From Amphiura filiformis (lineage: Eukaryota; Echinodermata; Ophiuroidea; Amphilepidida; Amphiuridae): a DNA stretch of 64,000 nucleotides. Of the stretch, positions 10,254 to 59,609 are shown in pieces. Made by a program: the position numbers and the translations under genes. Below the pieces are notes generated by a model. That model ran no database searches. It saw only the letters and a list, made by a program, of their open reading frames with translations, and was not told where the DNA came from. The stretch lies in assembly GCF_039555335.1 (NCBI RefSeq), contig NC_092636.1, forward strand, positions 3,501,371-3,565,370, in the 5' to 3' direction. Within the stretch, counting starts at the first letter, position 1, and each line of letters starts with the position of its first letter.

Positions 10254-10439
10254 TATAAGGCAGGGTCACGTGACACAAAAGTTCGGACGCTCTGAGAGGC
10301 TGCATATCAATCTTCTGTCACAGTTCCATAACAGGGATTAAAGAGTGAAGTGAAAGCAGCAGGCGGAGTTAGGTGTATGAGGCTATTATTGTCTAAGTTT
10401 CCAATATTCCAATATAGTTTGTTTATTTCTTTATCATGT

Positions 10440-12215: not shown

Positions 12216-12436
12216 TTATGACAACCCATTGAATCCAATGTGACTTCAAGAAGCAAAGTTACAAGCATTTGATTAGACGATGGTCCAGTGTTAAAAGTGA
12301 CAGACTGGTCTATTCAAAACTCCACGGCTTAGACATTTGGTTTGAGAGTGGTGAATGGCTAATTTATGCGTGCCTTTAATTTAAAACAAGAGGAACAAAG
12401 GAAAATTTGAAAGAAAATAACTGACAAATAAATAAA

Positions 12437-14195: not shown

Positions 14196-14199
14196 AGAA

Positions 14200-19025: not shown

Positions 19026-19236
19026 CAAGCAAGTTGTTGGTAGTTCAATGCAAATAAATCAATAACTAGTAGGCCTAATTAGAAATGTCTCATAAAATTC
19101 ATGTAGGGTCTAGGCCTACTACTACTAATGTATACAGCAACGTGTCTGTGAATAAACATTGACCTCAAAATTGTTATTGATAAATCCCATTCAATGCACA
19201 CTGTACATGATTGAGCAAATAATCAATACATGACCA

Positions 19237-20490
19237 CTCCCTCATTTCAAATATATAGTTTTGGTTTCTCTATTGTTCAGAAACCAAAAATCAAGGGATT
19301 AAAATGTGGAGATGAACTGGTATGCAATCATAACACTATTGTGCTGGGAGGACACAAGAGGGTATATATAATCAAAAGTATAATGGCCTATAACCATACG
19401 TATATAATAGCCTATTGTGCTAACATTTTCATTATCGATATCTATCAACGCGGGCGACTTTTGATGCTCTCTGCCGTAGGTGGCACACTTCCATGACACC
19501 ATAAAATTACACCCGAGTTCTGAGATTCGTTTGATAAGTTATGCATAGACATCGTTGAGACATAAAGGATGGATATATACGAGGCCTAGGCCTACATGTA
19601 GAAATCATGTGCGTATATTGAGGGGTGGGGGGTGTTTTGTTTATTTGTCTGAAATATAAACGATGCATGATGATGTAGATGATTTGATTATGAATTAGAT
19701 TATTCCCCGGAAAGCACAGCCCATACCTCTTACCTATGTTCCCTCCGCCACCTATATATAACCTCCTCCCTCCCCCTCCCCACACTCGATATCGACTCTT
19801 CCCTATCATTCCACTCCACTCTTGAGCCCCCCTCTCCCCTCCTTCCCTTCCCACTTCCAATGCTCTCTCCCTTCTGTTTCTCTTTCTCCCTTACCCTTAC
19901 CCCCTCCCCCCTCCGATCTCTTCTATCTCTCTCTCTCTATTCTCCAATAAATAAATTGAATAAAAGTTAGTTTAAACCAGCTTTCTATGATATTGATCTT
20001 CCGTCATGCGACATGCACATAAATAGAGTTGTGTATAATTGTGTTTATATCACTGAAGTCATAATCTGTCAAGTGCCTATTGTATTGTCTGTGGAAATAT
20101 TTCGATGGTCTATATATTTTCACAGTGAAATCAGCTTAGGCTAATTCGTAGTCTCAAGTCAATGCTTTCAAACTAAATCAATGCTTTCAAATGTAGACTG
20201 CTTTGTTCGACTTCTCTGCTCGTGAATATTGCACTGCGAAATTTCAACATTTCTTTTGTATACTTAGATCAGGTAACTCGAAAATCCTGTAATTTTATTC
20301 GTCACACCACTTATAAGAAACTGAAACAAAAACCGAAACTACCTGTCACAAATGTTTAGTTTTAAACAAAAGGTAGAAACAATGAGTTCGATATCTTGTG
20401 ATTCAAGTGGTTAGGCAGGACAATAGGAAACCACGTGACCAAAACCAAAACCAAAACCAAAACTAAAACTCAATATTTGAAATGAGGCAA
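19237..20490. mobile_element. 1.25-kb element with inverted ends, copy 1
   Basis: Left CCCTCATTTCAAATATATAG then TTTTGGTTTC; right CAAAACCAAAACTAAAACTC, AATATTTGAAATGAGGC, inverse with small differences. The contents are unrelated to transposases; pyrimidine-rich 19740-19930. Shares more than 90 percent with copy 2. Confidence 0.7.
19600..19945. repeat. Pyrimidine-rich tract inside the 1.25-kb element
   Basis: 19740-19935 is over 80 percent C and T with CTCTCTCTCT near 19928. The same tract in copy 2 (20990-21215) has gained ACACACACACCCCC. Gives false proline-rich frames. Confidence 0.8.
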
Positions 20491-21756
20491 TCCCTCATTT
20501 CAAATATATAGTTTTGGTTTCTCTATTGTTCAGAAACCAAAAATCAAGGGATTAAAATGTGGAGATGAACTGGTATGCAATCATAACACTTTTGTGCTGG
20601 GAGGACACAAGAGGGTATATATAATCAAAAGTATAATGGCCTATAACCATACGTATATAATAGCCTATTGTGCTAACATATGAATTATCGATATCTATCA
20701 ACGCCGGCGACTTTCTGCTCTCTGCCGTAGATGGCACACTTCCATGACACCATAAAATTGCACCCAAGTTCCGATAAGTTATGCATAGACATCGTTGAGA
20801 CATAAAAGATGGATATATACGAGGCCTAGACCTACATGTAGAAATCATGTGCATATATTGAGGGGTGGGGGGGGTGTTTTGTTTATTTGTCTGAAATATA
20901 AACGATGCATGATGATGTAGATGATTTGATTATGAATTAGATGATTCCCCGGAAAGCACAACCCATACCTCTTACCTATGTCCCTCCGCCACCTATATAT
21001 ATCCTCCTCCTCCCCCTCCCCACACTCGATATCGACTCTTCCCTATTATTCCACACCACTCTTGAGCCCCCCTCTCCCCCTCCTTCCCTTCCCACTTCCA
21101 ATGCTCTCTCCCCTCTGTTTTTCTTTCTCCCTTACCCTTACCCCCTCCCCCTCACACACACACCCCCTACCCTCTTTCCCTGGCGATCTCTTCTATCTCT
21201 ATCTCTCTATTCTCCAATAAATAAATTGAATAAAAGTTAGTTTAAACCAGCTTTCTATGATATTGATCTTCCGTCATGCGACATGCACATAAATAGAATT
21301 GTGTATAATAGTGTTTATAACACTGAAGTCATAATCTGTCAAGTGCCTATTGTAATGTCTGTGGAAATATTTTGATGGTCTATATATTTTCACAGGGAAA
21401 TCAGCTTAGGCTAATTCGTAGTCTCAAGTCAATGCTTTCAAACTAAATCAATGCTTTCAAATGTAGACTTCTTTGTTCGACTTCTTTGCTCGTGAATATT
21501 GCACTGCGAAATTTAAACATTTCTTTTGTATACTTAGAGTAGGTAACTTCAAATCAAATAATTTTACGATCCACACCACTTATAAGAAACTGAAACCAAA
21601 ACCGAAACTGACTGTCACAAATATTCGGTTTTAAACAAAAGGTAGAAACAATGAGTTCGATATCTTATGATTCAAGTGGTTAGGCAGGACAATAGGAAAA
21701 CACGTGACCAAAACCAAAACCAAAACTAAAACTAAATATTTGAAATGAGGCAATGT
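20491..21756. mobile_element. 1.25-kb element with inverted ends, copy 2
   Basis: Begins directly after copy 1 (GAGGCAATCCCTCATTT junction). Corresponding points are 1253 bp apart (CTCATTTCAA at 19241 and 20494). Ends AATATTTGAAATGAGGC at about 21755. Differs from copy 1 by scattered substitutions and a CA-rich insertion near 21150. Confidence 0.75.
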
Positions 21757-34684: not shown

Positions 34685-35453
34685 AGAAGTGACGTAATTA
34701 ATCGGATTAATTACCATAGCAATAGCTGAATACAATTTTGAATTTTTAGCCCTGCATTGCATTTTTCACGCGGTACTTAGGGGCTGTGCAATAATTATGA
34801 GTCCCCGGGGTTAAATTTTCGAACGGCCCGCCAAAAATCGCTTGCTCCCCCCCTCGGCCTGCCAAAATCGCTCCCCCCCATTTTACCCTCCCCAGGGTAA
34901 TTATTGCACAGCCCCTTATGCATCGAACCAATGATGTCAAAGAAAGGCTGATCACTCGCACCTAAAGATTAGTATCTTTGAAAAGAGCGATATTGTATTC
35001 AATCAGGAGGGTGAGAGTTCATCGGGGCAATGTCTGGAACCCAGGTCACGCTATTGTTCGACATAGGCTACATCATTTTAACGCATGCGTGTTCGTCAAT
35101 ACAGCTTTAGTCTTCTCCACTTTCGCAGCACGGTATGTGGAGTGACTGGAATCACACTGACGGCGGAGGAGAATACTAGGTGGTCAGACAGTTTAATTCT
35201 ATCAAGCACATAATACCTGAACAATCACCGTCATTTGGTCGATATACTACAGAATATATTGTATGACCTAGGCTACATCTTCCGGTTTCGTCACGTGATT
35301 TCAGTCGCCTATCCCGACTATTCAATTATTCCTGATTCAATCTATGTTTGCTGATATACACACCGTGCTTGTAGTGCAGGGCGATCTATTCAAAAATTGT
35401 ATTCATGTATTGCTATGGTAGTTAATCCGATCATTACGTCACTTCTACGGCGA
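34685..35453. mobile_element. Nonautonomous DNA element with 60-bp inverted repeats
   Basis: Left ATTCGCCGTAGAAGTGACGT then TTAATCGGATTAATTACCAT, AGCAATA; right end is the inverse (35405-35453). The ends are a relative of the TTCGCCAGCGAAGTG family (AGCGAAGTG replaced by GTAGAAGTG). No transposase. A second MITE is nested at 34780-34915. Confidence 0.8.
34780..34915. mobile_element. Harbinger-type MITE, 136 bp
   Basis: Ends GGGGCTGTGCAATAATTATG and inverse (AATTATTGCACAGCCCC), flanked by TTA at 34777-34779 and 34916-34918. A three-base TTA duplication with a GGG start is typical of PIF/Harbinger. The interior has GGCC-GCCAAAAATCGC repeats. Confidence 0.85.
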
Positions 35454-38769: not shown

Positions 38770-39727
38770 GTGCTTATTAATCTACGCTATGGTGGCATTT
38801 TAACAGTATCCTCATACTAGTAGAAAAGGTCATTGAACTTTGCACATGGAGTCAAGTTCAAAATTACTCGAACCTGTTCAAAATTCACACCATCGTAATG
38901 GTTAACTATTTTGGCTGCTTTCTTATCCAGGTAAGGGTAACACAGAAATTTGTCAAGGTCAAATTGATTCAATAGCACTCAATGCGATTCAATAGGTATT
39001 GTCGGTTTTGATGTGTTACTAAGGTAACAAAACATCCTACATAGCACAAACTATTATTTATCTGATTTATCATGGAAAGACCAATAACTTAGGACTATTT
39101 TTAACAAAATCGGTGCATTTGTCAATTTTGCTTGATTGTGCCAAAATCAGACGTCAGAATGTTACCCTTTTGCTCATAACTCAATAACCATACATCGTAG
39201 ATTAACATCGTAACATCCTATGACGTCATTCTGTCAATCATATGACGTCATCAGTGAAGGTTATCCTGATCGTAGACAAGATACAATCACAGCATCACCA
39301 TCTGCTGAAGACGCTAGTCGAACTAGTGAAAACGTTCCAGGTGAGCGAAAAATAGTGTAGTGTTGAAGGTAAACTCTTTAATCATTTTATCTACCACTAC
39401 GTATGAATATCCACTCGTATATTTCCAGAAGTGTTATGTATCTTTAATGTGCAGATGCGATATTAATTTGTAAGCTTTCTGGAACGACCTGAAAGGTTAT
39501 TATCTTATTCTTGCATGGTAAGCCAATATCCTATTATGTTTTGTTTTATAATAATCATGATTAATGATTGAATTAAACGAATAACAAGTAGGCTTTTAAT
39601 CTTGTTGGAAACATTGTATTCTGTTGAAATAAAATAAAAACACTGATTTGCTGTTGGTGTTCAAAATGGGACCAAGTTTCAAAAAGTGAGCCGAGGTGGG
39701 TTTTTTTAAACTTACTGGTTTCTTTAC

Positions 39728-41044: not shown

Positions 41045-41690
41045 AATCGTGTTTTAATGTTTGTGGTTCTTTGAAGCCCTGCGGGGTAATCTACTTGGCT
41101 ATCCGAATTTCGCGGTTTGTGGTTCTTTGTAGCCCTTCGGGCCAACCTAGTTGGATATTCCTATTAAGCGGCGGTTGTCAGCGATCTTTCGTGGTTTGTG
41201 GTTTTCATCAAGCCTTGCCATCTATCGGGAGCTAATTTATAGTTTAAGCTTGTTGGATATCCATATTTCGTGGTTTGTGGTTCTTTGTAGCCCTGTGGGG
41301 CAATCTAGTTGCAGATCCAAATTTCGCGGTTTGTGGTTCTTTATAGCCCTGCGGGGCAATCTAGTTGGATATCAATATTAAACGGCAGTTGTTGTTGATC
41401 TTTCGCGGTTTGTGGTCTTAATTTGTTGGATATCCATATTTCGCGGTTTGTGGTTCTTTATAATAGATAGGCCTGCGGGCAATCTGCTTGGATATCCAAA
41501 TTTCGCGGTTTGTGGTTCTTTGTAGTCCCTCTAGTTGGATATCCCTATTAAGCGGCGGTTGTCGGCGATTTTTCGCGGTTTGTGATTTCAATTTCTCTTA
41601 TCAAGCCCTGCCCTCTATCGGGAGCTAATTTATAGTTTAAGCTTGTTAGATATTCATATTTCGTGGTGTGTGGCCCTGAAATTATTTAAA
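41045..41690 (+). repeat. TTTCGCGGTTTGTGGTTCTT minisatellite, left part
   Basis: Units contain TTTCGCGGTTTGTGGTTCTT, TGTAGCCCTGCGGGGCAATC, TAGTTGGATATCC, and every second unit TATTAAGCGGCGGTTGTCGG. About eight degenerate copies before the Tc1-like element. Confidence 0.8.
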
Positions 41691-41702
41691 CTGAATGAAA
41701 TA

Positions 41703-42737
41703 TAGGGTGCACAACTTATAAGTTCCCCCCTACATATTTTTTAAAATAAATCGAAAACTATTTGCCGAAATGCAAACCTGTAAAATGCTATGGGTAGCCT
41801 TATTTGTTTTACAAATGTGGACCAAATTTTAGCGTCACACGTCGTTGCGTTCAGTCACAATGGTTCATTATGTAAAAAAAGGAGACCGTTTTAAACAGTG
41901 TTAAAAGTTGCATCTGAGTGCATAGGACTCAATCTCAAACAATACAGTAGGCCAGGGATATTCATGTGTTTGTAAAAGAAAACTTAATCTTTGGTATTCT
42001 TCTTCTTCTTGAAAAGCAAAGCAGGTGTTTTATTCATTTCTTTTTAATGATAAATGTCTGAGATGGAAGGGATATGTACTGCAATGAGAATAGACCACAT
42101 CGTCAGTAGTTCATCACATGTGAAAAGTTACATTTTAATAATGCCGCGTTTGCCCGAATTTCTTCGCGGTAGAGCAATAGGTTTGCTGGATGAAAATGTA
42201 CCGGTGAAAGAAATTGCTCGTCGTATGGGAGTTGCGCATAATGCAATTCGAAAATTGAGAACAAAATTTCAGTTGACAGGAGAGGTGAAAAATCAGCCGA
42301 GAGCACCTCGTCGACGTGTCACGACTGTTCGTCAGGACATGTCTATAGTGAATATGGCTGAAACCCGTCGAAAAATGTCATTGCGTTTATTGCGTTTCAA
42401 TAAATTATATCGTGCTCGTTTCCCAAACAAATTTGACTTACACATTTCGATTTTCATAAGTTTTCACCACGTATCTCTTTACAAACACATGGACACGCCT
42501 AACATACTGTATTGTTTGACAATTGACTCCTATGGACTCAGGTGCAACTTTTAAAACTCCCTCTTTTTCTACATAATGAACCATTGTGGCCAAACGCAAC
42601 GATGTGTGACACTACAAATTGGCCCAGATTTGTAAAACAAATAAGGTTACTCATAACTTTTTACAATTTTACATTTCGTTAAATAATTTTCGATTTATTT
42701 CAAAAAGCATTAGGGGGAACTTATAAGTTGTGCACTG
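41703..42737 (+). mobile_element. Tc1-like transposon with about 250-bp inverted repeats, internally deleted
   Basis: Left end GGTGCACAACTTATAAGTTC and right end its inverse. The inverted similarity extends about 250 bp inwards on each side (to near 41960 and 42480), including TCACAATGGTTCATTATGTA and CAATACAGTA. TA dinucleotides flank both ends (41701-41702, 42738-42739). The element splits a minisatellite array. Confidence 0.8.
42141..42554 (+). CDS. Tc1-like transposase, N-terminal DNA-binding part only
   Basis: The frame starts at MPRLPEFLRGRAIGLLDENV and continues VKEIARRMGVAHNAIRKLR, then a basic stretch QPRAPRRRVTT. This is the paired-like helix-turn-helix and GRPR-type hook of Tc1/mariner transposases. 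After about residue 85 the similarity stops, and the frame runs into the right terminal inverted repeat with no DDE catalytic domain. It could at most make a DNA-binding peptide. An ATG 29 codons upstream (42054) is also in frame, but the family normally begins at MPR. Confidence 0.7.
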   Translation: MPRLPEFLRGRAIGLLDENVPVKEIARRMGVAHNAIRKLRTKFQLTGEVKNQPRAPRRRVTTVRQDMSIVNMAETRRKMSLRLLRFNKLYRARFPNKFDLHISIFISFHHVSLYKHMDTPNILYCLTIDSYGLRCNF

Positions 42738-42774
42738 TATATAATTTCAGTCTGAGCTGTGAACAGAGACACTG

Positions 42775-43620
42775 ATAAATGTATTGGATATCCAAATTTT
42801 GCGGTTTGTGGTTCTTTATAGCCCTGCGAGGCAATCTAGTTGGATATCAATATTGAGCGGCAGTTGTTGTTGATCTTTCGCGGTTTGTGGTCTTAATTTG
42901 TTTGATATCCATATTTCGCGGTCTGTGGTTCTTTATAATCGATAGGCCTGCAGGCAATCTAGTTGGATATCCAAATTTCGCGGTTTTGTGGTTCTTTGTA
43001 GCCCTGCTAGTTGGATATCCCTATTAAGCGGTGGTTATCGGCGATTTAATTTCCCTCAGCAAGCCCTGCCGGAAGCTAATTCATAGTTTAACCTGGTTGG
43101 ATATCCATATTTCGTGGTGTGTGATTCTTTGTAGCCCTGCGGGGCAACCTAGTTGGATATCCAAATTTCGCAGTTTGTGGTTCTTTATAGCCCTGCGAGG
43201 CAATCTAGTTGGATATCAATATTGAGCGGCAGTTGTTGTTGATCTTTCGCGGTTTGTGGTCTTAATTTGTTGGGTACGGTTTTGTGGTTCTTTTTAATCG
43301 ATAGTTATGCGGGCAATCTAGTTGAATATCCACATTTCGCGGTTTGTGGTTCTTTGTAGCCCTGGATATCCCTATTAAACGGCGGTTATCGGCGATCTTT
43401 CGCGGTTTGTGATTTTAATTTCCCTTCAAGCCCTGCCCTCTATCGGGAGCTTAATTTATAGTTTAAGCTTGTTGGATATCCATATTCCGTGGTGTGTGAT
43501 TCTTTGTAGCCTTACGGGGCAACCTAGTTGGATATCCAAATTTCGCGGTTTGTGGTTCTCAATATCAATATTCAGCGGCAGTTGTTGGCGATCTTTTTCT
43601 TTTATAATATTTATTCCAAA
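42775..43620 (+). repeat. TTTCGCGGTTTGTGGTTCTT minisatellite, right part
   Basis: Continues the array after the Tc1-like element with about ten units. The 43-bp sequence TAATTTCAGTCTGAGCTGTG, AACAGAGACACTGATAAATG stands at 42740 and again at 43623, so about 880 bp has been duplicated. Confidence 0.8.
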
Positions 43621-46164: not shown

Positions 46165-46550
46165 AATTAATTATCATTGATTAATTAATATTAATTAATT
46201 AATTAATATTAATTAATTAATTAATATTAATTAATTAATTAATTAATTAATATTAATTAATTAATATTAATTAATTATTTAATTAATTAATTAATTAATT
46301 AATTAATTAATTAATTAATGTATTAATAAATTAATGTATTAATTAATTTATTTATCTATTTATTTATTTATTTATTTATTTATTTATTATTAATTACTTA
46401 ATTAATTAATTAATTAATTATTAATTTATCAATTAATTAATTATTAATTAATTAATTAATTATGAATACATTAATAATTAATTAATTAATAATTAATTAA
46501 TTGATAATAATTAATTAATTAATTAATTAATTAATTAATTAATTATTAAT
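46165..46550. repeat. TTAA/ATTA low-complexity block
   Basis: About 385 bp made almost only of TTAATTAATTAA and TTTATTTATT, no G or C except scattered single bases. Self-complementary throughout. Confidence 0.95.
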
Positions 46551-46802
46551 TACTTATACTATATCGTAGTATAACCCCAAAATATGTATCTGTGATACAA
46601 GGCCTGCTTGTGTGTCAAATATCACAGTATGCTACTGATCTGTGGCACTGTCAGATTGCATGACTAAGTCAAACATGTTCAGACAAGCAAAAGTGTCCCA
46701 ATGGCAAAGCATACATATAGACCAGAAGGACTTAACATCACCATACAAGTCGCTTACATCTTTTGCCATGGGAGGGTTATTAAATTGACATAATTTTAAA
46801 GT

Positions 46803-47383
46803 ACGAGGGGCGGTCAAAAGTTCGTAGAACAAGGTATGCTACTTTGTCGCATTGAATTTGGTCTCATTTAAAAGCCTGTTCCTTCAAAACATTACCGCAA
46901 AAACATTAGAGTTTTGCCTCACTATGGGCAGGACACACTTCAAAGGAAGACTACCTCCATGAATTCAAAGGTACTAAACCAGAAGTTAACACAGGGTCAT
47001 CATGGAAATTTCTCCCAACGGTGATGAAATTTAACAATGTGCAATTGCTGTAAATGGTGATGAGGTCCTTGATATTCAACAGCAACGAAATGGTCCTAAG
47101 AGTTCAGGGATGAAATGAGCGTCCTTGAAGATCATCTAAGGTCCAAAAGACTTGCTGACGTTACCACTAGTGATATAGTGACATTGATAATAAATAAAGA
47201 ACCAAACAAGAAAGATGAGATAGCCAAAAAATATAACATATCTGATGAAAGTGTTTTCAACATAAATACATAACACTTGGGTATTCCATGGCGTCTTCTA
47301 CATGGGGGTCCCAGAATCTTCATGCATAAAATTAATACCAGTTGACATAATCAGTTCCACACCTTCTATACACTTAGAATGTT
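46803..47383 (+). mobile_element. Decayed mariner transposon, left part
   Basis: Begins with a mariner-type terminal repeat (TACGAGGGGCGGTCAAAAG, then ACAAGG-T-TGCTACTTTGT). The plus strand carries remnants of the N-terminal half of a mariner transposase in broken frames: a second helix-turn-helix-like segment reading RLADVTTSDIV... DEIAKKYNISDESVF... HLGI, and a later stretch ending KLIP...HLECS. Many stops. The element continues at 56978. Confidence 0.65.
47367..47383. repeat. 17-bp direct repeat, left copy (putative target-site duplication)
   Basis: TATACACTTAGAATGTT, identical to 56978-56994. The two copies flank the 9.6-kb block bounded by inverted Penelope copies and lie at the same point of the interrupted mariner (HLEC codons). 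Confidence 0.7.
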
Positions 47384-48990
47384 CTTGAACAAATTCATCA
47401 GGACTGTTCCATAAAACTGTATATTTTTTCATATACTAGTCCAGGTTAAACACACTTACGTGCAGACGTTTCGATAGCTATCAGCTATCTTTCTCAATGC
47501 TACTGTTGATGTGATGATCGCTGTACAGCTGTTGTTGATCGCTGCTTGGCAACAGAGTTGCCAGACGATTTCTCCATCAACAGGTCGTCATAGATGTGAC
47601 TTAGGTTGTACTGGCCCTCGTCTCGGTTCATTGTTGCTCCTTGCTTTCTGATGGTGATGGCCTCCTTTATCCATCTTGTGTATTTATCACTCTCTTTTCC
47701 GACAATCCTTGCCTCCTCCCAATTGATGATATGATTATTGTCCACAACATGGTCAGTTATCGCAGATTTATGGATGGTAGATTGCGAAGCTTTCCTGTTG
47801 GCTCTAGTGCGGATATTGGTAGCGACTTTATCTGCCTCACTTCGATGTTCATCTAAGCGCTTCCCGAATTTTCTACCGGTTTCACCTATGTATGTGAGAT
47901 CACAGTTTTTGCATGGGATTGAATAAATGACATCCGTAGAATTTTGTGGCTCGCGTTTATCTTTCGGATGGACGAGAAGGTTGCGTAACGAGGTGTGGGG
48001 TTTCATGGCGGCATGGATGTTATAAGACTTCATGACTCTGGCGACACGCTCAGACACCCCTTCCACATACGGTAATGTCACAAATCCCCTGGATTTTTCA
48101 CTGTCGTCTTTGGCTTTCTTGCCTTTTTGCTTAGGAGTAGCCATTTTGCTCTTAACTTTATCCACACACCAGTCCGGGTATCCACACTGTTTTAAAGCAC
48201 CTTTAATTATCTTCTCCTCCTCCTCTTTGTCCTGATCTTCGGTGACAATCTTATCTTTCCTATCTAACAGTGTGCGAACAACCCCAAGTTTTTGATGTAG
48301 GGGATGGTGCGATTTGAAGTTCAAGTACTGGTTTGTGTGGGTGGCTTTGCGATAAACTAAAAGCTTCACGGACCCATCTTCACGGCGAACAATTAGAGTG
48401 TCCAAGAATGGTATCTTTCCGTCGACTTCTTTCTCGAAAGTGAATTTGATGGACTGTGTGTCATCGACTTGGTTGAGATGGTCAGTAAGCGGTATGACTG
48501 CGTCTTTGGCTACTACTTCCAGAATGTCGTCGACGTATCTTTTCCAAAGCTTGGGCTTGCATTCAATAGGGGCGGTCATGATGGCTGATTCCTCTAAGTA
48601 TTCCATAAAGATGTTGGCTGCTAATGGGGACACGGGGCTACCCATAGCCGCTCCGAATCGCTGTCTAAAAATTTTGCCGCGAAAGGTGAAGTACGTCGTG
48701 GACAAAATGAATTCCAAAAGCTCAACTACATCATCCGCAGTTAGATTAAAACCTTGCGATTGGTTGTAGTCTTTAAGCCAGCGTTCTTTACTAACTCTGT
48801 CTTTCACTATGTCTAATACTTTGCTGATGGGAGTGCAAGTAAACAGTGAGACTACGTCGTGGGAATTAAGTATGTCCCCTTCATCAATGAGAATATCCAC
48901 AAGCTCTTCTGCCAGGCACCGCTGTTTATGCATGACATTTTAGTTGTACGCACTCGCGCATGGGCACGGCATTTACAGCAGGAAATGGCG
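47384..48990 (-). mobile_element. Penelope-like element, copy 1
   Basis: Extends from about 48990 (homology with copy 2 begins near GTACAACTAA) through the RT/GIY-YIG frame to the 3' end at 47384, next to the 17-bp direct repeat. The 3' untranslated part has a hairpin (GATAGCTGATAGCTATC) followed by GAAACGTCTGC, then a tail of about 100 nt. Compared with copy 2 it has 35-45 extra bases at the 3' end. Confidence 0.85.
47500..48933 (-). CDS. Penelope-like element reverse transcriptase with GIY-YIG endonuclease (5'-truncated)
   Basis: 477-codon frame. Reverse transcriptase part: residues 24-31 SHDVVSLF (motif with first catalytic Asp), 93-108 FGAAMGSPVSPLAANI, 132-137 RYVDDI (catalytic YVDD), 171-178 DGKIPFLD. 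Linker with KPHTSLRNLLVHPKD at 311-325. C-terminal GIY-YIG nuclease: DVIYSIPCKNCDLTYIGETG at 334-353, then RKFGKRLDEH and a His/Asp-rich stretch (IHKSAITDHVVDNNHIINW). RT followed by GIY-YIG defines the endonuclease-bearing Penelope-like elements, which insert by target-primed reverse transcription. The catalytic residues that remain are intact and there is no stop, so the copy is young. The N-terminal part of the RT (fingers, PKxHK region) is missing: an in-frame TAA lies just upstream of the first ATG. The copy is therefore truncated, or an upstream exon exists. Probably not functional alone. Confidence 0.92.
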   Translation of the reverse strand: MHKQRCLAEELVDILIDEGDILNSHDVVSLFTCTPISKVLDIVKDRVSKERWLKDYNQSQGFNLTADDVVELLEFILSTTYFTFRGKIFRQRFGAAMGSPVSPLAANIFMEYLEESAIMTAPIECKPKLWKRYVDDILEVVAKDAVIPLTDHLNQVDDTQSIKFTFEKEVDGKIPFLDTLIVRREDGSVKLLVYRKATHTNQYLNFKSHHPLHQKLGVVRTLLDRKDKIVTEDQDKEEEEKIIKGALKQCGYPDWCVDKVKSKMATPKQKGKKAKDDSEKSRGFVTLPYVEGVSERVARVMKSYNIHAAMKPHTSLRNLLVHPKDKREPQNSTDVIYSIPCKNCDLTYIGETGRKFGKRLDEHRSEADKVATNIRTRANRKASQSTIHKSAITDHVVDNNHIINWEEARIVGKESDKYTRWIKEAITIRKQGATMNRDEGQYNLSHIYDDLLMEKSSGNSVAKQRSTTAVQRSSHQQ

Positions 48991-48994
48991 GGAA

Positions 48995-50060
48995 ATTTCA
49001 ACCATTTTCGCGATACCGTACAAGACGCACCTGGTCACAGTTCCTTCCAAAGCTTCAATTTCTTGTGTCCAATTACTTGAACCCGATATTATTTTTGTTT
49101 AAAAACGTTATTCCTAGAAGTTAGAAATGGTTTTTCCTTGCTTAGGCTCTTCAAAATATTAAATTCACTTCATTCAAAAGGGTTCAAAATATGCAACATT
49201 TTATCATGTCAACACTGATTATAAGATAAAAATCACCTTTTTTGATGACAATTTTACATTTTTTCTGAGGTTATCCCACTGATTGGAATATTTTATTATG
49301 AAACAACGGCCTTTGATAAATACACTGAACCTTTAGTTTCTTTCTCAATAGGTCGATTTCGTATTTTAAAGGAAAATTGAATTTACCGGTTCTTTCTACC
49401 ATGATTTTCTCTAACTTCTCGGAAGTCAATATTAATAAGTCCATGTTGATATATTTCAACCTCATCCACTCCATTAAATTTGAAATGAAATCATTTCATT
49501 GAAATGTATGAACTTTAATACTATTATATTATAAATCCGTCACAGGTAGGCCGGCCTATCTGTAACTAGCCCTTCTGAGGTGGTTTGTTTACAAACAAGT
49601 CAGCATGACATGACATGTGACACGTACTGGCTAGCTAATCGAGGAAGAGCAGTATGGAACCAGAGTCGTGTATGGAACAGAAATGTGTACATTTTCAGAT
49701 GCCAAAATAGAGATTGAGTATTATTTAAAAAAATATCTGCATGACATACTGAACTCTAAATATTACAGAGCTAGATCCAGTTTATTATGGCATTTAAATA
49801 CACGCCCGCGACACGGCGGAACAGCATTAAAAATGCAGGCTGTTGTTTAATCACGAAGAAACTACGGCCGGCCACGTTGCACGCTAGCCCGCGCCCGGGA
49901 CGCTAGCTGTGAATCTCATGGCAGCCCGGCATGGCAGGGACATGGGGAATACGTAAAACCTTCATAATTAAATTTTAATAAATAAATAAATAATAAAGTA
50001 TATTAAAAATGATTTATTGATTAAGGAAAACACTGTCTGACCCCTGCTGAAAACTGAAGC
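48995..50060. other. Interior of the Penelope-bounded block, no gene seen
   Basis: Contains a self-complementary GAAATGAAATCATTTCATTG (49485) and a G/C-richer stretch with GCCCGCGCCCGGGACGC near 49885. No frame with recognisable content. Confidence 0.4.
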
Positions 50061-50064
50061 ATTT

Positions 50065-50290
50065 CTCGGCAGCATGACTAGGCCTACTAGGCCTATCCCG
50101 CATGTAGGCCTACATCAACATCATTTCATGAAAATAAATTTCATGAAATGATGTTGATGTAGGCCTACATGCGAGATAGGCCTCATGTAGGCCTTCATCA
50201 ACATAATTTCATGAAAATGATTTTCATGAATGATGCATGATGTAGGCCTACATGCGGGATAGGCCTAGTAGGCCCAGTCATGCTGCCGAG
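50065..50290. repeat. Large compound palindrome of AGGCCTA units
   Basis: Outer arms CTCGGCAGCATGACTAGGCC / inverse at 50269-50290. Inside, TGTAGGCCTACAT occurs repeatedly, and ATCAACATCATTTCATGAAA is inverted as TTTCATGAAATGATGTTGAT around a short centre at about 50130. The whole 226 bp can fold as nested hairpins. Confidence 0.8.
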
Positions 50291-50336
50291 AGCCACTGCG
50301 GGTAAAATGAACGCCCGGCCAATTTCTGTGCTTTTA

Positions 50337-50614
50337 GGGACCGTTCACAAGCAATTGTAAGGGGGGCCTGATGCAAAAAAAAAAATCATCGCGAAACATT
50401 TTTGGGGCCCCACCTTTTAATACAGACCTCAAACATTTCAGGCCCCCCCCCTTTTTGGCATTAAAATTATGGGTCAACCCCATAGAAAAGCATTTTAACT
50501 CAATTTTTCTAGGAAATTTGTCATTTTTTTCAGGGCCCCCCTTAGGAGGGTCAAAAATTTTCAGGGTCCCCTTTTTGCTTCTTTCTCCCCTAACAAATGT
50601 TTGTGAACAGTCCC
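50337..50614. mobile_element. MITE, 278 bp, GGGACYGTTCACAA ends, TTA duplication
   Basis: Left GGGACCGTTCACAAGCAATT, right TGTTTGTGAACAGTCCC, with TTA at 50334-50336 and 50615-50617. The interior GGGGGGCCTGATGC and CAGGGCCCCC is again short G/C-rich tracts. A second Harbinger-like family. Confidence 0.8.
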
Positions 50615-50803
50615 TTATGGCCCCATTAACCTTGCCCATTAAGGTATGTTTTCTTTATTTTTACAGGCACCCCCATAACCCCCTTGTCGGCAGCACTGAG
50701 TATAGGCTTATTGATAAAGCTTAGGGGTGGTGCCATAATCATGTCTACCCCCAGGGTGGTCAATTGTCAAAAGGTCTGCCAAAATCACTTCCCACTTCAC
50801 CTA

Positions 50804-51370
50804 GGGAGGGCGAGTTAGCGCAGCGGTAGTTCCCTCGCTTTGCACCACTGAGGTCTCGGGTTCAAGCCCCAGCGCGGCCCAAGGACTCATGTGCACTTGG
50901 TTTATCCCGATTCCATGCTCACTCTCGCAGGTTTTCTCCGGGATCTCCGGTTTCCTCCTGTATCACAAAAATCGGTGATTAGTTGTTTGGTTATCAAAAA
51001 CTTCCTTCACCCAATGGAATTTGGGGAGCTGCACAGATAATTGGTGAATGTTACAATCTAAATGCGGATAGGTGTGCGCCAGGGTTCGAATTCGGCTGTA
51101 TCGCATAGCAGTTTGCTCCATATTTTGAAGTAACTGCTACCCAATTTTGCATTTGTATAGCACTTTTTATCCTGATTATGATGAATTAACCAAAAAACTG
51201 CTATGCAAATTTTTTAAACGAATTCGAACCCTGGTGTGCGCCGTTCGTCAGCAACCTAGTTGATGCGATCTGATTGTGATTATTCACCATTGCAGCGAAA
51301 TTACAGCGCTTTGAGTCCTCTAAGTTCTGGAGAAAGGCGCTTTATAAATCCAAAATTAATTATCAATTAA
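50804..51370 (+). mobile_element. tRNA-derived SINE (carries a nested MITE)
   Basis: The 5' head folds as a tRNA: GGGAGGGCGAGTTAGCGCAG at the start (A box), GGGTTCAAGCCCC (B box) and GGCCC at the end. A body with TTTATCCCGATTCCATGCTC and TCTCCGGTTTCCTCC follows. The 3' tail AGCGCTTTGAGTCC... AAAGGCGCTTTATAAAT is the LINE-related end common in deuterostome SINEs. Polymerase III internal promoter present. 51080-51233 is a later insertion. Confidence 0.8.
51080..51233. mobile_element. hAT-type MITE, 154 bp, with 8-bp target duplication
   Basis: Terminal inverted repeats CAGGGTTCGAATTCG / CGAATTCGAACCCTG, flanked on both sides by GTGTGCGC (51072-51079 and 51234-51241). An 8-bp duplication and a CAGGGTT start are diagnostic for hAT elements. 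Inner repeats AACTGCTATGC and inverse also pair. Confidence 0.9.
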
Positions 51371-51383
51371 AATGTCTGGAGCA

Positions 51384-51630
51384 GTCAAGTTAGCTCAATC
51401 GATAAGGTGTTCGACTATGGTACGAGAGGCTGCGGATTCGAACCCTGGCGGTGCCTAGTATGCTCTTGTGGAAAAACGTACTAAACTCTGGGGCTGATCC
51501 TGGTTGCGAACTTTATTTGTGGAATGTCTCATGAAGTAGCAAAGTCCCTGAATTGTGAAATGGTTTATGGAATGATGTTGGACCGTAGAAAAGTGGGGCG
51601 ATGAGCACGAAATGCCCCTTTAAAGTAAAC
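51384..51630 (+). mobile_element. Second tRNA-derived SINE
   Basis: A box-like AGTTAGCTCAATCGATAAGG and B box GGATTCGAACCCTGG, 34 nt apart. The family is also represented by a minus-strand fragment at 27200-27262. The 3' limit is uncertain, perhaps near ATGCCCCTTTAAAG at 51620. Confidence 0.6.
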
Positions 51631-52276
51631 ATGTCTCTGAAACTATACATCTCACACTAACAATACTAACACATTTTTTTGATGACTTTGACCACAAATT
51701 TTTATTTTTTAAAATATCTTAAAAATACAAGAATCTAAGCTAATTGAACAGACAGTAGTACTACCCAAGTTTTTTTAGTGGCCCATATATAGCAGAGTTA
51801 CTGCAGGGCTGCAAGCTGGTAACTTCCATGCCCTAACTTCAGAATTACTCCACAGCTACTCCATCACAAGCTACTGTATTACGGTACTCTAAGTTATTGC
51901 ACAGCTTCTCCAGCTTGGAATAGTCCTGCAGTATTGAACTCGGCTATCCATGGCTACCCAATAACTGGCCATATGAATATGGTTGTGTATGTTTATGATT
52001 GATCAGAGTGTGACAAAGTAAGGATTCACCAGAAGTTTGTTACACTTTCATAACATATTTAATTTTCTTCATGCATAGTGTATTCTACATCAATTTGAAC
52101 TGCATATTTGGATGGTGAAAGCTTTTGTCATAAGAAAAGAAACAGGTCGTTGAACTTTCCACATAGGGTCAATTTTAAAATTACACAAATCCTGTTCAAA
52201 ACCTACACTATCGTAATCCTCCTCTGGCAATAAAGATTCAGAAAAAGTATACTTTGACATACCTATGATGTACGGT

Positions 52277-52502
52277 TAGGCCTAAAAAATTGTTTGATTG
52301 GCGTAATCCGACCGGCCTAGAAATAAGCCCGACCCTAGACTTTTTTCTTACTTTTTTTGCAAAGAAATTTTAATTAATTAAAAAAATTCCACAACCTTTA
52401 TCATACGCAATTTACAGCTTAAAATGTGTGCAAAATAAAAATTACTGACCGACCTACCCTAATATTTTTATGTTATGCCAATCAAACAATTTGTTTAGAC
52501 CT
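52277..52502. mobile_element. MITE with AAATTGTTTGATTGGC ends
   Basis: Left TTAGGCCTAAAAAATTGTTT then GATTGGCGTAA; right TTATGCCAATCAAACAATTT then GTTTAGACC. About 226 bp, no coding capacity. Confidence 0.75.
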
Positions 52503-52593
52503 TCATAGAGTTACGAGCAAAAGAGTAACATTGTGACGTCATAGGTCTAATGAAAATGAAATTGTTCTGATTTTTATGAAAATGATCTCAAAT

Positions 52594-52779
52594 TAGGGCT
52601 GTGCAATAATTATGAGCCCTGGGGAGGGTAAAATTGGGGGAAAGAAATTTTTGGCGAGCCGAAAGGGGGGGGGAGGCAAGCGATTTTTGGTGGGCCGAGG
52701 GGGGGGCAAGCGATTTTGGCGAGCCGTTCGGATATTTTACCCGCCCCCCGGGGGAGCTGATAATTATTGCTCAGCCCTT
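52594..52779. mobile_element. Harbinger-type MITE, same family
   Basis: AGGGCTGTGCAATAATTATG at the left, AATTATTGCTCAGCCCT at the right, TTA on both sides. Interior rich in GGGGG and CGATTTTTGG. Confidence 0.8.
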
Positions 52780-52784
52780 ATTGG

Positions 52785-54280
52785 TCTTCTTGCAAGAAAT
52801 CAGACAAAGAGAATAGTTCTTTTAATTATCTAGGGTGCTTTCTTATTTTTGATATCAATTTCAAATTATAGAACTCAATAAGACTCGATGTGTATTGTCC
52901 TTTTTGAATTTTGATGTGTTACCAAGGTAACAAAACATCCTATACTGCACAGGTTCACCATCGGTACTTGACTTTTGCAGTACAGCATTGTAATGTGTAG
53001 GTACTCTGTGTGTACCAGTCAGGTACCTTGGGGATGATGAACCTGTCCTGGCGGCCACAATAGGGATACATGTACATAGTGCAAACTATTATTTTTCTGC
53101 TTTATCATAGGACATATAATTGGAGACCATTTCAACTTCGAGCATCCTCTGAACCCTTTTGACCTCGGGAACACCAGCTGGAACATTATTGTTTGTGTTT
53201 AAGAAAGTCCAAGCAATAAAGCAAATTTAACATGATTTGCACATCATTGTATAACATCCTTGTCCAGACGTGTCGTTATCACGCGATGTCACAATGTACA
53301 CCAGCACCAACCCTCTTCATGAATGGAACTACATATCTTCGCCCAGTTTCTCTTGAACATCCATGTTCTTTTCTGTGAAAATAGAGCAATAAAAGAAAAT
53401 AAAAAAAAATTAGTAAATAAGCTTAAACTGAAAGTTGTTATTGTGTATATCAATTACAAATATGAATCACTGATTAACTTGATAACTTAAGCTGAAATTA
53501 CAGCTAGGTTTAGGTGACAAAAACCCTGTTCTACAGGCCTGTCTGACCTAGATTTTTGTGTCTCAGGTGTGCTTTTTTTTGGAAAAAAAAACTATGAATG
53601 GAGCAAGTGAAAAAAATTGAAATTTTTTTACAGATCTTAAAATTTACAGGTATAAGGTCATTTCCACAAGAAAAATGCTCAACTGACAAACCTACATGGG
53701 TTTATTTCTGTCGCATTTGAGTGTACAAATTGTAGAATCGTGGAGGAAAAGTGAACAAAATGACAGACCATACAGGCAAAAGCAGCCTGCCTATTCCCAA
53801 TTTCAACAACACAATCTTGATGTCCATCATTTCTATTAAAAAGCAATGAGCACCAACTCGCCGTTTTTTAGTGAGTTTTGAGTACTTTCGTCACCACCTA
53901 TCCCGCGGAATGTGGGAAAATGATGGCACTTGTAATTTTTGGTTATTTTGAACAGTCTATAATTTAGTTGAAGTGCAATTTTAGCAACAGTTTTGATGCG
54001 ATGACCCCATCATTATTTCCGAACTACCCTTGCTATTATGGTGTCGTTCTTCATCAATTTCTAGCCTCAAAAGCTATTGGTGAGCAAATTCCCCGGCAAA
54101 TTCGAAGCTAGACTACCAGGGTGCATTCTACCATTGCCAATCCGTGGGTTGTATAGGGTTATTCCTGTTAATTAAAAATGTATGTAAACCCAGCTTACAG
54201 CCCCACATTTTCTAGGATGGGGGAATCTGGGATGATTGGGGTGAAGTAGGCCTACTTAAAATGCATTGCATGATAATATC
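52785..54280. other. Interior of the Penelope-bounded block, no gene seen
   Basis: Sequence at 52915-52940 (TGTGTTACCAAGGTAACAAA, ACATCCTA) repeats that at 39010-39040, as does 52140-52210 with 38830-38900, so a diverged piece of the 38.8-39.1 kb region recurs here. Confidence 0.45.
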
Positions 54281-54286
54281 ATGATT

Positions 54287-54603
54287 AGGCAAAAAAAAAA
54301 TATTATTGTGTTGCCCTCAAGTGGGAAATATAGGTCGGACGGTCGGATTTCTTTTTTTTTTATTCTCAAATATTAAATAATGCTTCTTCAATTAGGGGAC
54401 ATTTGTCAATTTTGACTTCTGGATACCTGTTAGACATCAATTAAAGACTAGTCTTTCAATAAAATATTACTTTTAAGTGAAAAACATTGAGTTTTTGAAC
54501 AAATCTGTAAAATTCATCATTCAAAAAAAAAAAAATTGTGACCCTGATTTTTCAGGATTTAGGGTCGGACGGTTGAGGGCAAAACAATAATTTTTTTTGG
54601 CCT
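54287..54603. mobile_element. MITE with TTGCCCTCAA inverted ends
   Basis: Left GGCAAAAAAAAAATATTATT, GTGTTGCCCTCAA, and GGTCGGACGGTCGG; right GGGTCGGACGGTTGAGGGCA, AAACAATAATTTTTTTTGGCC. Confidence 0.75.
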
Positions 54604-54646
54604 AACGCATGTCACACACATAACACATTTGATCGAGAAGTCTATC

Positions 54647-55512
54647 TTTAATCATGGAAGAAAGAGATAAGAAGGAACCACAACGAACGCATTCACTTTG
54701 TCCACTCCCTTTACCGACATTTAGTTGACATTGTTATTCATGAGGATTTACTTTGATCAATACCCCGCGTTAAATAGGTGATTGGTATTGTATTCCATGT
54801 ATTTGCATGTCTTCTGGAGCGTGTGTGAAGGATGATTTGAACTAATGACCTTCCGTGCAAGCACCCTATAGGATTTTCTCTGGTGACGTGATCATCGGTC
54901 ATTGATGGCCTACATCTTTTTCTTCCATTTTGCCCAATTTTTCCGAACTTTGATGATTTTTTTCTCAGAGTTGGCAGTCTTTGGCACTGAAACGAGTTAG
55001 CTAGTTACGATTATACACATTTAAACTATTAAATTAAACAGGTTTTATGTACCGGACTCAACCGGAACATTGTGCATTATTTAAGAACATTTTACATCTA
55101 TTTTTCATCGAAAAAGTCACCAAAATCTTACGTTATTTGCTAAAGATGAAACTCAGCAAAAAAACGGCCGATTTTGATTACCTTTTCGATGTTTTATAGG
55201 ACATTTTTTACACAACACGATCAAGAAAACAGTTTGACTGTAGATCCCAAAACAAAGCTACTATACATGTTCAGAGCATCAGTGAAATTCCATAATCTTA
55301 CTTCTGGGTAGCGTTTGTTTGTTCGTGGATGGGTTTGTTATAAATTTTTTTTTGTATTGATTTTGCCAAGCATCGATCGCGGTAAATGGATTATACATGA
55401 AAGGAAGTACCATTGATAGCTTTTCTTTTCATGCGTCAATAGATAAGCGGATTAAAACTTGGCCGATCGAAGTCGTTGTGGTTCCTTCTCATCTCTTTCT
55501 TCCATGCTTTAA
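54647..55512. mobile_element. Nonautonomous DNA element, 866 bp, 40-bp inverted repeats
   Basis: Left TTTAATCATGGAAGAAAGAG and ATAAGAAGGAACCACAACGA; right TCGTTGTGGTTCCTTCTCAT and CTCTTTCTTCCATGCTTTAA. Two mismatches in 40. The interior has no long frame. Confidence 0.75.
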
Positions 55513-55514
55513 TA

Positions 55515-56640
55515 CAGGCCACTGATATAGAAACCAATGATTGATTATTATGGATTGAGCTTTGGAGCTACATGTATCTCCAAATCATGTCAGAATCAGT
55601 CAAGCATAACACCACATTAGCAATGAAAATTCGGAAGTAAACAACAACGCAGATCACGATGGGTACAGCACCCCGAAAAAGCTGCTCAAATGACACATCA
55701 TCAGCGAATTGTGAGCATGGGGCCATGGTTAATCTCATAAAATAAAAATGAGCAAACTTTGGCTGCTCTGAAGATACAGATATGTCATCAAAATAAATTT
55801 CGGTACCCCGGTAACATTAAACTTAATAAAGAATTTTTTTATGTGTTTGAAAATTGGCGACGATTAAGTGACTGAAGTAGTTAAATAGTTCCATGCTCTA
55901 TCTCTGTCCGTGTTCACACTCACTGTGTCATCGTGGATAGTAGATACGAGTTCTAGATCAAATGACGCACAGACAGTAAGCTTACTTCAACCCAACAGAA
56001 GCCAGCTGCTCGGTCATAATATTTAATATTGCGCATCTCTGTGCAATATAATCCTTCTAGGTACATCCACGGCCTTGCTAACGTGCATGTTTACATACAC
56101 ATAGGATAGCCATCATTGCCCATTTACATGGCATAGCACTCAGAAATACATGCATGGCATATACATGCATGATATTGAAATCGTTTATTATTTTTTTTTA
56201 AAAGGACATTTTTTAACCTTGGGCCATTCATTAATTCAGCCTATTGAGAGCGTTTTTATTCACTTGCATACAAGATCAGATATAAAAGAAGGTGTACCAA
56301 GTGCCCAAAATCATGGGTAAAGTACAAAAAGATTTGAAAATCCTACCGCTGCTACTGCCTTGTTGCAGCACGGTGCAGAAACTCCGGAAACAAGTACAGA
56401 ATTTGGGTGCAAAGTAATGTACAATTTCAGGAAATATTTATCACTGATGATGAAACCGGATTCATTTTAAGAATATCTTAGATCAAATAATTACCTTCGA
56501 TTCGAAAATGTAGTTACTCTTGCAATATTAACACCTTTTTGCAGCATTTTTATTCCACCACGGCTATTGTTTACGTGCAGACCGCCAGCATCCATCTTTA
56601 ATTGTGTCAAGATCATAGTCTCGTTACCAGTCGTTTTAAG
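55515..56640. other. Interior of the Penelope-bounded block, no gene seen
   Basis: AT-rich, some ATGCATG-type palindromes near 56150. No convincing frame, element ends or RNA. Confidence 0.4.
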
Positions 56641-56645
56641 CTCTT

Positions 56646-56977
56646 CGGTACAACTAAGTTGCGGATTTTACGCAAAATAAACAGCGGTGCAGGTGCGTTG
56701 AGAAAAGAGAGTGATAAATACACAAGATGGATAAAGGAGGCCATCACCATCAGAAAGCAAGGAGCAACAATGAACCGAGACGAGGGCCAGTACAACCTAA
56801 GTCACATCTATGACGACCTGTTGATGGAGAAATCGTCTGGCAACTCTGTTGCCAAGCAGCGATCAACAACAGCTGTACAGCGATCATCACATCAACAGTA
56901 GCATTGAGAAAGATAGCTGATAGCTATCGAAACGTCTGCACGTAAGTGTGTTTAACCTGGACTAGTATATGAAAAAA
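56646..56977 (+). mobile_element. Penelope-like element, copy 2 (internally deleted)
   Basis: From 56703 to 56977 it appears identical to the 3' end of copy 1 (47410-47700, opposite orientation), including the last 66 codons of the frame (KESDKYTRW... to SSHQQ-stop at 56902-56904) and the 3' hairpin. Just upstream it also shares ATAAACAGCGGTGC and GTACAACTAA with the 5' side of copy 1. It is therefore an internally deleted copy lacking about 1.2 kb of RT sequence, not a simple 3' fragment. Confidence 0.85.
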
Positions 56978-56994
56978 TATACACTTAGAATGTT
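56978..56994. repeat. 17-bp direct repeat, right copy (putative target-site duplication)
   Basis: Identical to 47367-47383. Its first five bases (TATAC) also fit the Penelope 3' end, so the duplicated target could be as short as 12 bp. Confidence 0.7.
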
Positions 56995-57575
56995 ATTATA
57001 TTTGGTTAAAGGTGAAAAGATATACATTAATCACTGAAATTATGAGTCCATTCAGTGGAAACACCTGGATCTCCTACCCACAAGAAGATCACCACTCGGT
57101 CACCATAGCGGAAGGTCTTCATCGCAGCTGTTTTCTAAGATTCAGGTATATGTCATTTTGATAGCAAATTTGAGGCAAGCCAGTGAGGAAGGTTGGTGGT
57201 AGGAATGTGCCTGTTCTCGAATAGTGTCCTGTGCCCTATTCTCAGTTTGTCAAGCTACCATTCACGACAGAGGGGTCAGTTAACTAAATCAACCATATTG
57301 TGGTCCAGCCATGTCCTCTAGTTAGTGAAACCTATTTTAGAATTTTAAGTCCTACCTTCATAATATCAGGTTTGGTGTGATCAATGCTGTTGAGCCTTGA
57401 CTGAAGAGTGGCTCATGGAGCAGTCGGAAGACCTCCATTTTGTTGACATAGAAGGTTTCAAGAAAAATTGCAACGGGTGCATTGAGGTATGCAGTGACCA
57501 TGTTCAAGAGTGAGATAGAAGGAATTTAGCTAGTCCTCTTACAAAGTACCTTGTTCTTATTGACCGCCTCTCAAA
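56978..57575 (+). mobile_element. Decayed mariner transposon, right part
   Basis: Resumes the mariner frame: ESIQWKHLDLLPTRRS near 57046 corresponds to the family's ESMEWKHPxSPxPKK. Near 57405 EEWLMEQSEDLHFVDIEGF followed by KKNCNGCIEV is a recognisable transposase C terminus. The right terminal repeat (ACAAAGTACCTTGTTCTTATTGACCGCCTCTC) is the inverse of the left one at 46803. The middle of the transposase is badly degraded. Confidence 0.65.
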
Positions 57576-58013
57576 TTAGGAGTATTGTATTTCTTACTTT
57601 TTTTCTCCTTCATTTGACATCACTTGGGGGGGGTTATACCTTCGTGGCATTTCAAGATATGCCCATTTAAGACCAAATGGTTAGTGAGTAGTAAGTAACA
57701 TGCACTTCCATAGGGTGCGCCTGTACGGCCCGCCAAAAATAATAGGTTAAAACACGAAACTTCGGAGGTTTTGCATTTGCCACTAGAACGTCTGTTAGAA
57801 AATTCAATAAAAATGACTGACCTCTTCATCTGGTCTTCGGCGTATACTATGCCTACGCGGGTGTATAGGATTTTATCAAATACACCGCTTTAATAGTAAA
57901 AAAGCCTAGACAGATGTTTTGCTTTTTAAAAAACGTGCCAATTTTACCAAATGATTTTAGAAGTGTAAGTCTTAATCGGAGCTGACATTCACGGCGATAG
58001 TTTGAAACAGAAT

Positions 58014-58497: not shown

Positions 58498-59546
58498 ACA
58501 CAGCCGTGACGTTACAGGTTCTTTCTTCTTTCTTCTGCCGACCATTACATTTGCTCTAGCTCTCACATGCTTACACAGATTTTGACCTAACTTTGTCACA
58601 ACCATCATTGACCATGCCCCTACATGTCACATGAAACTCGTGGGGTCAAAGGTCACGCAGGGGAAGCAGGGGTCAAAAACGTGATTTCAACTCAAGATGC
58701 TTCTTCTCCCATAGATTACGTATGACAGTGACATAACTTGCACACATGCATTGTTATTACCCAGTGTCTATGGGGTCCTCACATATTTGGGGTCAAAGGT
58801 CATTAAGGGGTCATTTCCGGTATAAAACGAAAAACCTTCAACAAATTTTATCAGCCAAGAAAAACATTGGAGAGTGATGGTATATTCACACATGAATTTT
58901 GTTTACCTAATGTACATGTGGTATTTCTTCATTTGGGGTCAAAGTTCATTAAGAGGTCACTTCCGGTATAAAACGAAATACCTTCAAAAAAATTTATCAG
59001 CCAAGAGAAACATAGGAGAGTGATGGTATGTTCACACATAAATTGTAGTTATCCTGTGTATATGTGGTATTTTTTAGGGTCAAAGGTCATTAAGGGGCCA
59101 CTTCCGGTATAAAACGAAATACCTTTAAAAATGCTTCTCCCACAAATTACGTAGGACAGTGACACCACTTGCACACATGCATTGTAATTACCCAGTGTCT
59201 ATGGGGTCCTCACAGATTTGGAGTCAAAGGTCATTAAGGCCTTCAAATTTTGTTATTTGCTAAGAAAAACATAGGACAGTAACGGTATGTTCACACATGA
59301 ATTGTGGTTACCCAGTTCATATGTGGTATTTTTTTATTTGGGGTCAAATGTCATTAAGGGGTCACTCTCGGTCTGAGACGAAAAAATGCCCCTTCTGTCA
59401 CAAGTAACATAGAAAAGTGGTGCCACGTGCACCCATGCATTGACATTAGCCAATGTCTATGGGCGTTTTCATATATTTTGGGGTCAAAGGTCATTAGGGG
59501 TCACAACACGGCTGTGTTCGTGGGTTAGACCACAGCTAAGTCTAGT
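58498..59546 (+). mobile_element. Helentron-like element E5, solitary copy
   Basis: Plus orientation. 5' end ACACAGCCGTGACGTTACAG, then GTTCTTTCTTCTTTC. Body of 145-bp units with GGGGTCAAAGGTCATTAAGG. Near the 3' end CACGGCTGTGTTC is the inverse of the 5' terminus, then a hairpin (GTGGGTTAGACCAC, one mismatch) and CTAAGT-CTAGT at 59542-59546. A 5' terminus that reappears inverted just inside a 3' hairpin, and a CTAGT-type end, are the features described for Helentrons and their nonautonomous derivatives. Confidence 0.65.
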
Positions 59547-59609
59547 TGACATTGTGTTCTCTTAGTTCTACCTTTATTCGTTTCCTGATGGTTTACATAC
59601 TTCCGAGTA

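Follow-up and report, generated by a model that had tools for sequence, protein, structure and literature searches.

Penelope-like elements (PLEs) are known to frame DNA that is not their own. In the rotifer Adineta vaga, unrelated coding and non-coding DNA has been found between PLE terminal repeats (pLTRs), together with target duplications (Arkhipova, Yushenova, Rodriguez 2013, PMC3846280). The cases described there include an intron-bearing NRPS gene framed by Pen3a, with a known empty site and with two direct pLTRs and one inverted pLTR, as well as a few non-coding sequences captured between solo pLTRs and Pen1 spacers that represent captured host DNA (PMC3846280). A review gives 4 kb for the PLE-framed gene of A. 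vaga (PMC6431247). Here we describe a locus of the ophiuroid Amphiura filiformis in which about 7.7 kb of host DNA lies between two inverted PLE ends, all within one short target duplication in an old mariner transposon. It belongs to a window of 64,000 nucleotides (assembly GCF_039555335.1, contig NC_092636.1, positions 3,501,371 to 3,565,370, forward strand), and coordinates below are positions in that window. Host DNA framed by PLE ends is a known kind of structure; the present example is larger than the quoted case and has informative inner junctions.

The remaining anatomy has described counterparts as well. Inverted PLE ends, a one-sided tail and a target duplication are typical of PLEs (PMC3846280). 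The A. vaga element Pen2a resembles our locus in its inverted ends, with a tail of 31 bp compared with 34-40 nt here and a duplication of 9 bp compared with 11-17 bp; it differs in that a full open reading frame (ORF) and no host DNA lies between its pLTRs (PMC3846280). In vitro, the protein of the Poseidon element of Anolis carolinensis, PAc, cuts and extends both strands, and its reverse transcription begins at two adjacent internal start sites, between which an optional tail of 30-40 bp lies (PMC11167929). With PLE-framed DNA of A. vaga our locus shares host DNA between PLE termini, a short target duplication and an inverted terminal copy. Unlike the NRPS case, it has only an inverted pair of ends; it differs further in that one of these carries the remnant of an ORF, 1.5 kb long, in that no genes were recognised in the 7.7 kb or so between them, and in words shared between the inner junctions. 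No further case of PLE-framed host DNA, and none in an echinoderm, came to our notice among titles and abstract openings, which is no proof of absence. The features of the locus are as follows.

46804-47383, plus strand: left mariner half, old and degenerate, with TA at 46802-46803, a terminal inverted repeat and an N-terminal transposase reading.
47367-47383, plus strand: left copy of the target duplication, TATACACTTAGAATGTT.
47384-48939, minus strand: left PLE fragment, 5'-truncated inside the reverse transcriptase (RT) domain, with its 3' end pointing outwards (left).
47384-47417, minus strand: tail, extra PLE 3' sequence on the left end only, with ATGAATTTGTTCAAG (MNLFK) on the minus strand.
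47418-47699, minus strand: left arm of an exact 282-nt inverted repeat.
47503-48939, minus strand: ORF of 479 aa, RT from the motif-4 region onward and GIY-YIG endonuclease.
48916-48949, plus strand: left inner junction between PLE and host DNA, with GCACCGCTGTTTAT at 48916 and TTAGTTGTAC at 48940.
48950-56640: host DNA, about 7.7 kb, with nested repeats that by eye are like short interspersed elements and miniature inverted-repeat transposable elements, and an element with 45-nt inverted arms.
56641-56701: right inner junction, a patchwork.
56702-56983, plus strand: right PLE end, consisting of the last ORF codons and the 3' untranslated region (UTR), 3' end outwards (right), without tail, last six nucleotides TATACA.
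56978-56994, plus strand: right copy of the target duplication, 11-17 bp.
56978-57576, plus strand: right mariner half, with TA at 57577-57578.

The DNA flanking the block consists of two halves of one old mariner, whose reading is continuous without the block. The 17-mer TATACACTTAGAATGTT stands at 47367-47383 and again at 56978-56994, with no further copy on either strand of the 64 kb, and this direct repeat encloses 9,594 bp. After the halves had been fused so as to keep a single 17-mer, a lenient tblastn search aligned 105 of 120 mariner proteins through the junction in a single frame, and five base-shuffled controls gave 0, 0, 0, 1 and 1 matches, all weak. These proteins, the top 120 among 6,566 matches at E 1e-20, are mutually related and so do not amount to 120 independent tests. 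The consensus used to fetch them had been drawn up after the reading of the window was seen, hence the added test by the proteins themselves. The consensus matched Mos1 and SETMAR in PDB; its top three matches in the window are the two mariner halves, and it follows the joined halves in one frame through the junction (combined score of two pieces, E 5e-8). Across the whole window, the best match of the 120 proteins fell on the left half in 104 cases, on the right half in 9 and elsewhere in 7. The outer ends carry a terminal inverted repeat, imperfect and gapped, and TA adjoins both. A first-pass annotation of this DNA had described a mariner reading broken at 47383 and resumed at 56978, terminal repeats of opposite sense at its outer ends, and a junction sequence present on both sides. 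All of this is borne out, except that the duplication must be given as 11-17 bp and not surely 17, because TATACA at the right junction is both PLE and target sequence.

This short duplication lies exactly at both outer PLE ends, and the two outward-pointing Penelope 3' ends of the first-pass annotation are confirmed by exact inverted arms. The arms at 47418-47699 and 56702-56983 are identical at 282/282 nt, slightly more than the 275 or so first given, with a 95% upper bound on divergence of 1.06%. The right fragment comprises the 282-nt end only, the left one extends to about 48939, and no third DNA match to the PLE ends occurs in the 64 kb. The left fragment is an endonuclease-bearing PLE with RT and GIY-YIG in one ORF. 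Its RT portion starts in a region that we take to be motif 4. In Pfam, the ORF scores 23.4 bits for GIY-YIG (cut-off 22.6) and 18.4 bits for RVT_1, under the cut-off of 29.6, as expected because the RT is truncated. Its protein relatives number 1,201 at E 1e-3, with many from A. filiformis among the 120 listed, and the best among the matches listed is an A. filiformis protein (79% identity, 86% of the query). Thirteen of the 15 farthest-reaching protein alignments stop at 48921-48933. The other two reach 48963 and, with gaps, 49035 but hold no convincing similarity past 48939, and the final 20-30 nt of the left PLE are therefore of uncertain assignment. As for DNA relatives, two exact patterns searched in viral contigs gave no match in one case and a single contig, unrelated by eye, in the other. 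Patterns from an alignment of 13 proteins (that of the window and 12 of the 120 listed) gave 33 matches in viral contigs and 41 in genome contigs, none of them a relative by tblastn.

The left PLE end also carries a tail that the first-pass annotation overlooked. It comprises 34 nt, or 40 if TATACA is counted, and is missing from the right end, so that the locus has an inverted terminal copy with a tail on one end. On the PLE sense strand the tail ends in ATGAATTTGTTCAAG, or MNLFK, and it appears to extend into the beginning of the following PLE ORF, since this resembles the MNL starts of listed relatives: seven of the 120 hold MNL at residue 1, with a similar pattern thereafter. A 31-bp tail that does so, on one of two inverted ends, is described for PLE terminal repeats (PMC3846280). 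MKKYTVLW, another reading of the tail, has no counterpart among the starts of the 120 listed relatives and was dropped in favour of MNLF, which fits. The tail holds CTGATGA, presumably the hammerhead core word, at the ORF start codon, and ends before the rest of a hammerhead motif could occur. By eye, the 3' UTR (47418-47500, minus strand) contains the 7-bp hairpin GATAGCTGATAGCTATC and then GAAACGTC; with the CTGATGA of the tail, these words are possibly hammerhead remains, and Rfam gave no hammerhead match.

Between the PLE ends, and within the single target duplication, lies non-PLE DNA with repeats, as first annotated, about 7.7 kb in length. Its GC content is 0.383. That of the window, 0.371, fits the 36.67% published for the A. 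filiformis genome (PMC11310086). The stretch contains a hairpin element and elements with inverted arms, and its nested, split repeats mark it as ordinary host DNA with a long history. At 52138-53108, a repeat copy collinear with 38822-39073 is broken by other repeats, one of them related to 34778-34914. The element at 54642-55517, originally given as 866 bp, has 45-nt inverted arms (89%) that span 876 bp; TTTAAT adjoins both inner 34-nt arms, and the element perhaps used a TTAA-type target. No stop-to-stop frame in the host stretch exceeds 128 aa, Pfam searches on 10 of its 34 frames of at least 55 aa gave one match below the cut-off (E 0.094), and no tRNA genes were found at 46500-58000. Matches to the host stretch elsewhere in the window reach at most 106 bp, and its source thus lies outside these 64 kb.

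The inner junctions look linked in their formation because they have words in common. GCACCGCTGTTTAT (48916), TTAGTTGTAC (48940) and ACGCACCTG (49025) recur, all with the same orientation, at the right inner junction, where 32 of the 64 nt of 56640-56703 belong to words of 9 nt or longer that also stand in 48916-49034. In a scan of 25,470 window placements of 130 bp on both strands, with placements over the tested stretch excluded, the left inner junction was the best placement at word lengths 8, 9 and 10. The runner-up covered 11 nt as against 32 at word length 9, and 11 as against 24 at word length 10. The patchwork of the right junction may have arisen when repair copied short pieces of the left join.

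The best account of the locus, which we hold with moderate confidence, is a single PLE attack in which both strands primed cDNA and the gap was closed by about 7.7 kb of captured host DNA. A PLE ribonucleoprotein would have cut both strands of the old mariner, 11-17 nt apart. From each exposed 3' end, PLE RNA would then have been reverse-transcribed, beginning at one or the other of two neighbouring internal start sites. Priming on the left would have used the outer site, leaving the tail, and priming on the right the inner site, without tail, where a 6-nt match between primer and template (TATACA) possibly helped. Both cDNAs would have ended early, the left one at about 1.56 kb and the right one at 0.28 kb. 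Uptake of host DNA from elsewhere would have closed the open ends, and the right join may have come last, with short patches copied there from the left inner junction. The sequence itself shows the anatomy, the target duplication, the one-sided tail, the exact arms and the words common to the inner joins; we infer the order of these events, their unity and the capture of the host stretch as DNA during repair.

Two described modes of priming can be compared with this account. Our locus looks like the use of one start site per side because the tail is one-sided and, in the PAc system, lies between the two start sites; the tail-offset sites and both-strand priming of PAc match the end signature seen here. 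The likeness has limits: PAc is known in vitro, it starts 111-118 bp inside its ORF as opposed to about 15 nt here, and its start sites are not homologous to the target, whereas here TATACA is common to PLE and target on the right. In L1 twin priming, each side of a single staggered cut primes a cDNA, and both 3' ends point outwards. Both-sided priming and outward 3' ends are likewise features of our locus, but it has no poly(A), and both cDNAs copy the same 282 nt, not different parts of the RNA. The literature found for Penelope together with twin priming names neither of them in title or abstract.

Several points weigh against a single attack with host DNA capture. The margin of the left inner junction over other placements hinges on word length, with a runner-up of 26 nt as against 32 at word length 8, and ACGCACCTG alone is a mere 9-nt match. 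In 20,000 base shuffles of the right junction stretch, coverage went no higher than 20 nt and so never came to 32, a count that overstates the case because the zone was picked with the two longer matches already in view; the placement scan is independent of that choice. An alternative origin of the patchwork is that both cDNAs ended near one RNA position, and in that case, too, the inner joins look linked. Against the mariner reading of the target, Mos1 and SETMAR stretches from PDB gave no match on the joined mariner halves, and the decayed mariner reading itself found only unrelated weak matches in Pfam (below cut-off) and PDB (E 1.5). Finally, the 7.7 kb need not have come in together with the PLE ends; that it did so is our inference. 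The first-pass annotation had the whole block enter as one unit, and the shared junction words favour linked formation. This idea and its proposal that two Penelope ends carried host DNA, which has a precedent in A. vaga, or that a template switch occurred during target-primed synthesis belong to the best-supported class of explanations. A composite that moves repeatedly as a unit finds no support within this window. The judgement of that annotation that the identical ends beside old repeats are hard to explain was too strong, as inverted, tailed PLE ends with a target duplication are typical and framed host DNA is published.

Two serious rivals to DNA capture in one event deserve consideration. 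The first, which we regard as possible though unlikely, is also a single event, with the 7.7 kb copied from RNA: the template would have been a read-through transcript of host DNA and a 5'-truncated PLE donor (5' transduction), or the RT would have jumped to another RNA. The three shared words stand in the orientation expected from copying of a chimeric host-PLE RNA, one of them coming from the host side (49025). The A. vaga authors weigh read-through transcripts and template jumps for N-rich inserts; for cargo that kept its introns, they consider antisense RNA as the template (PMC3846280). Yet 7.7 kb exceeds the 4 kb quoted for PLE cargo (PMC6431247), and the left cDNA otherwise resembles an ordinary early stop within an intact frame. 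The copied strand holds 22 AATAAA or ATTAAA words where base composition predicts 13.6, an excess that is a weak point because the other strand holds more (30, with 13.2 expected).

The second rival, to which we give somewhat less credence, has two steps: a head-to-head PLE insertion, and later an internal break that was repaired with a 7.7-kb host piece, the inner junctions being made at that time. Long inverted repeats are fragile, which counts for this sequence of events; it explains the same anatomy, and linked inner junctions fit it equally. It requires one additional event, and the arms show no difference in 282 nt. With the same upper bound on their divergence, the second step would fall while the arms were young.

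Less probable again is a true cargo unit, in which a PLE dimer primed both strands and the RT copied or jumped through a host transcript of about 7.7 kb. Were this the case, PLEs could spread multi-kilobase unspliced host segments as closed units, and since both outer ends would be PLE 3' ends, such units could be remobilised.

An assembly chimera, with the middle brought in from elsewhere and joined via the identical PLE ends, is distinctly improbable. The published A. filiformis assembly is built from nanopore reads at 3.22% heterozygosity (PMC11310086), and mis-joins at identical repeats are possible. The mariner, however, joins the PLE at different positions on the two sides, with and without tail, and two unrelated mis-joins would not yield words common to the inner junctions; the linkage of those junctions argues against a chimera and against independent insertions alike. 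Two independent PLE insertions that point outwards by chance are the most improbable of all, for although PLE proteins of this kind abound, both outer ends coincide exactly with the 17-bp repeat, the arms are fully identical, the PLE ends have no third match in the 64 kb, and the inner junctions share words.

If a single PLE attack closed by captured host DNA is the right account, the locus bears on how PLEs finish their insertion, which is unsettled: the 2024 in vitro study describes the later steps as still to be validated (PMC11167929). The locus resembles a naturally formed, still young insertion product in a readable mariner target, with both strands primed, one per start site, and a host-filled gap that retains traces of the join. 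The known range of PLE-framed host DNA would then include an echinoderm as well as rotifers, and its size would rise from 4 kb to about 7.7 kb. Other genomes can be searched for the same pattern, two outward PLE 3' ends enclosed by a single target duplication.

The window contains further repeats outside the mariner. At 14185-18669 and 58512-59547 lie large tandem arrays, mutually related (about 65-81%) and in opposite orientation, whose register is roughly 146 bp. A tandem duplication of about 1.26 kb, 92% identical, occupies 19235-21754. Two copies of a direct repeat of about 480 bp, at 9781-10254 and 11737-12216, are 94% identical, start about 2 kb apart and are possibly the ends of a single element. 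Around the inverted arms 41700-41976 and 42478-42742 (81%) lie two related tandem arrays, 41059-41673 and 42784-43596. The ORF at 42054-42554 between these arms resembles, as an impression only, the helix-turn-helix N-terminus of a Tc1-type transposase, and 41059-43596 is possibly a DNA transposon with satellite ends.

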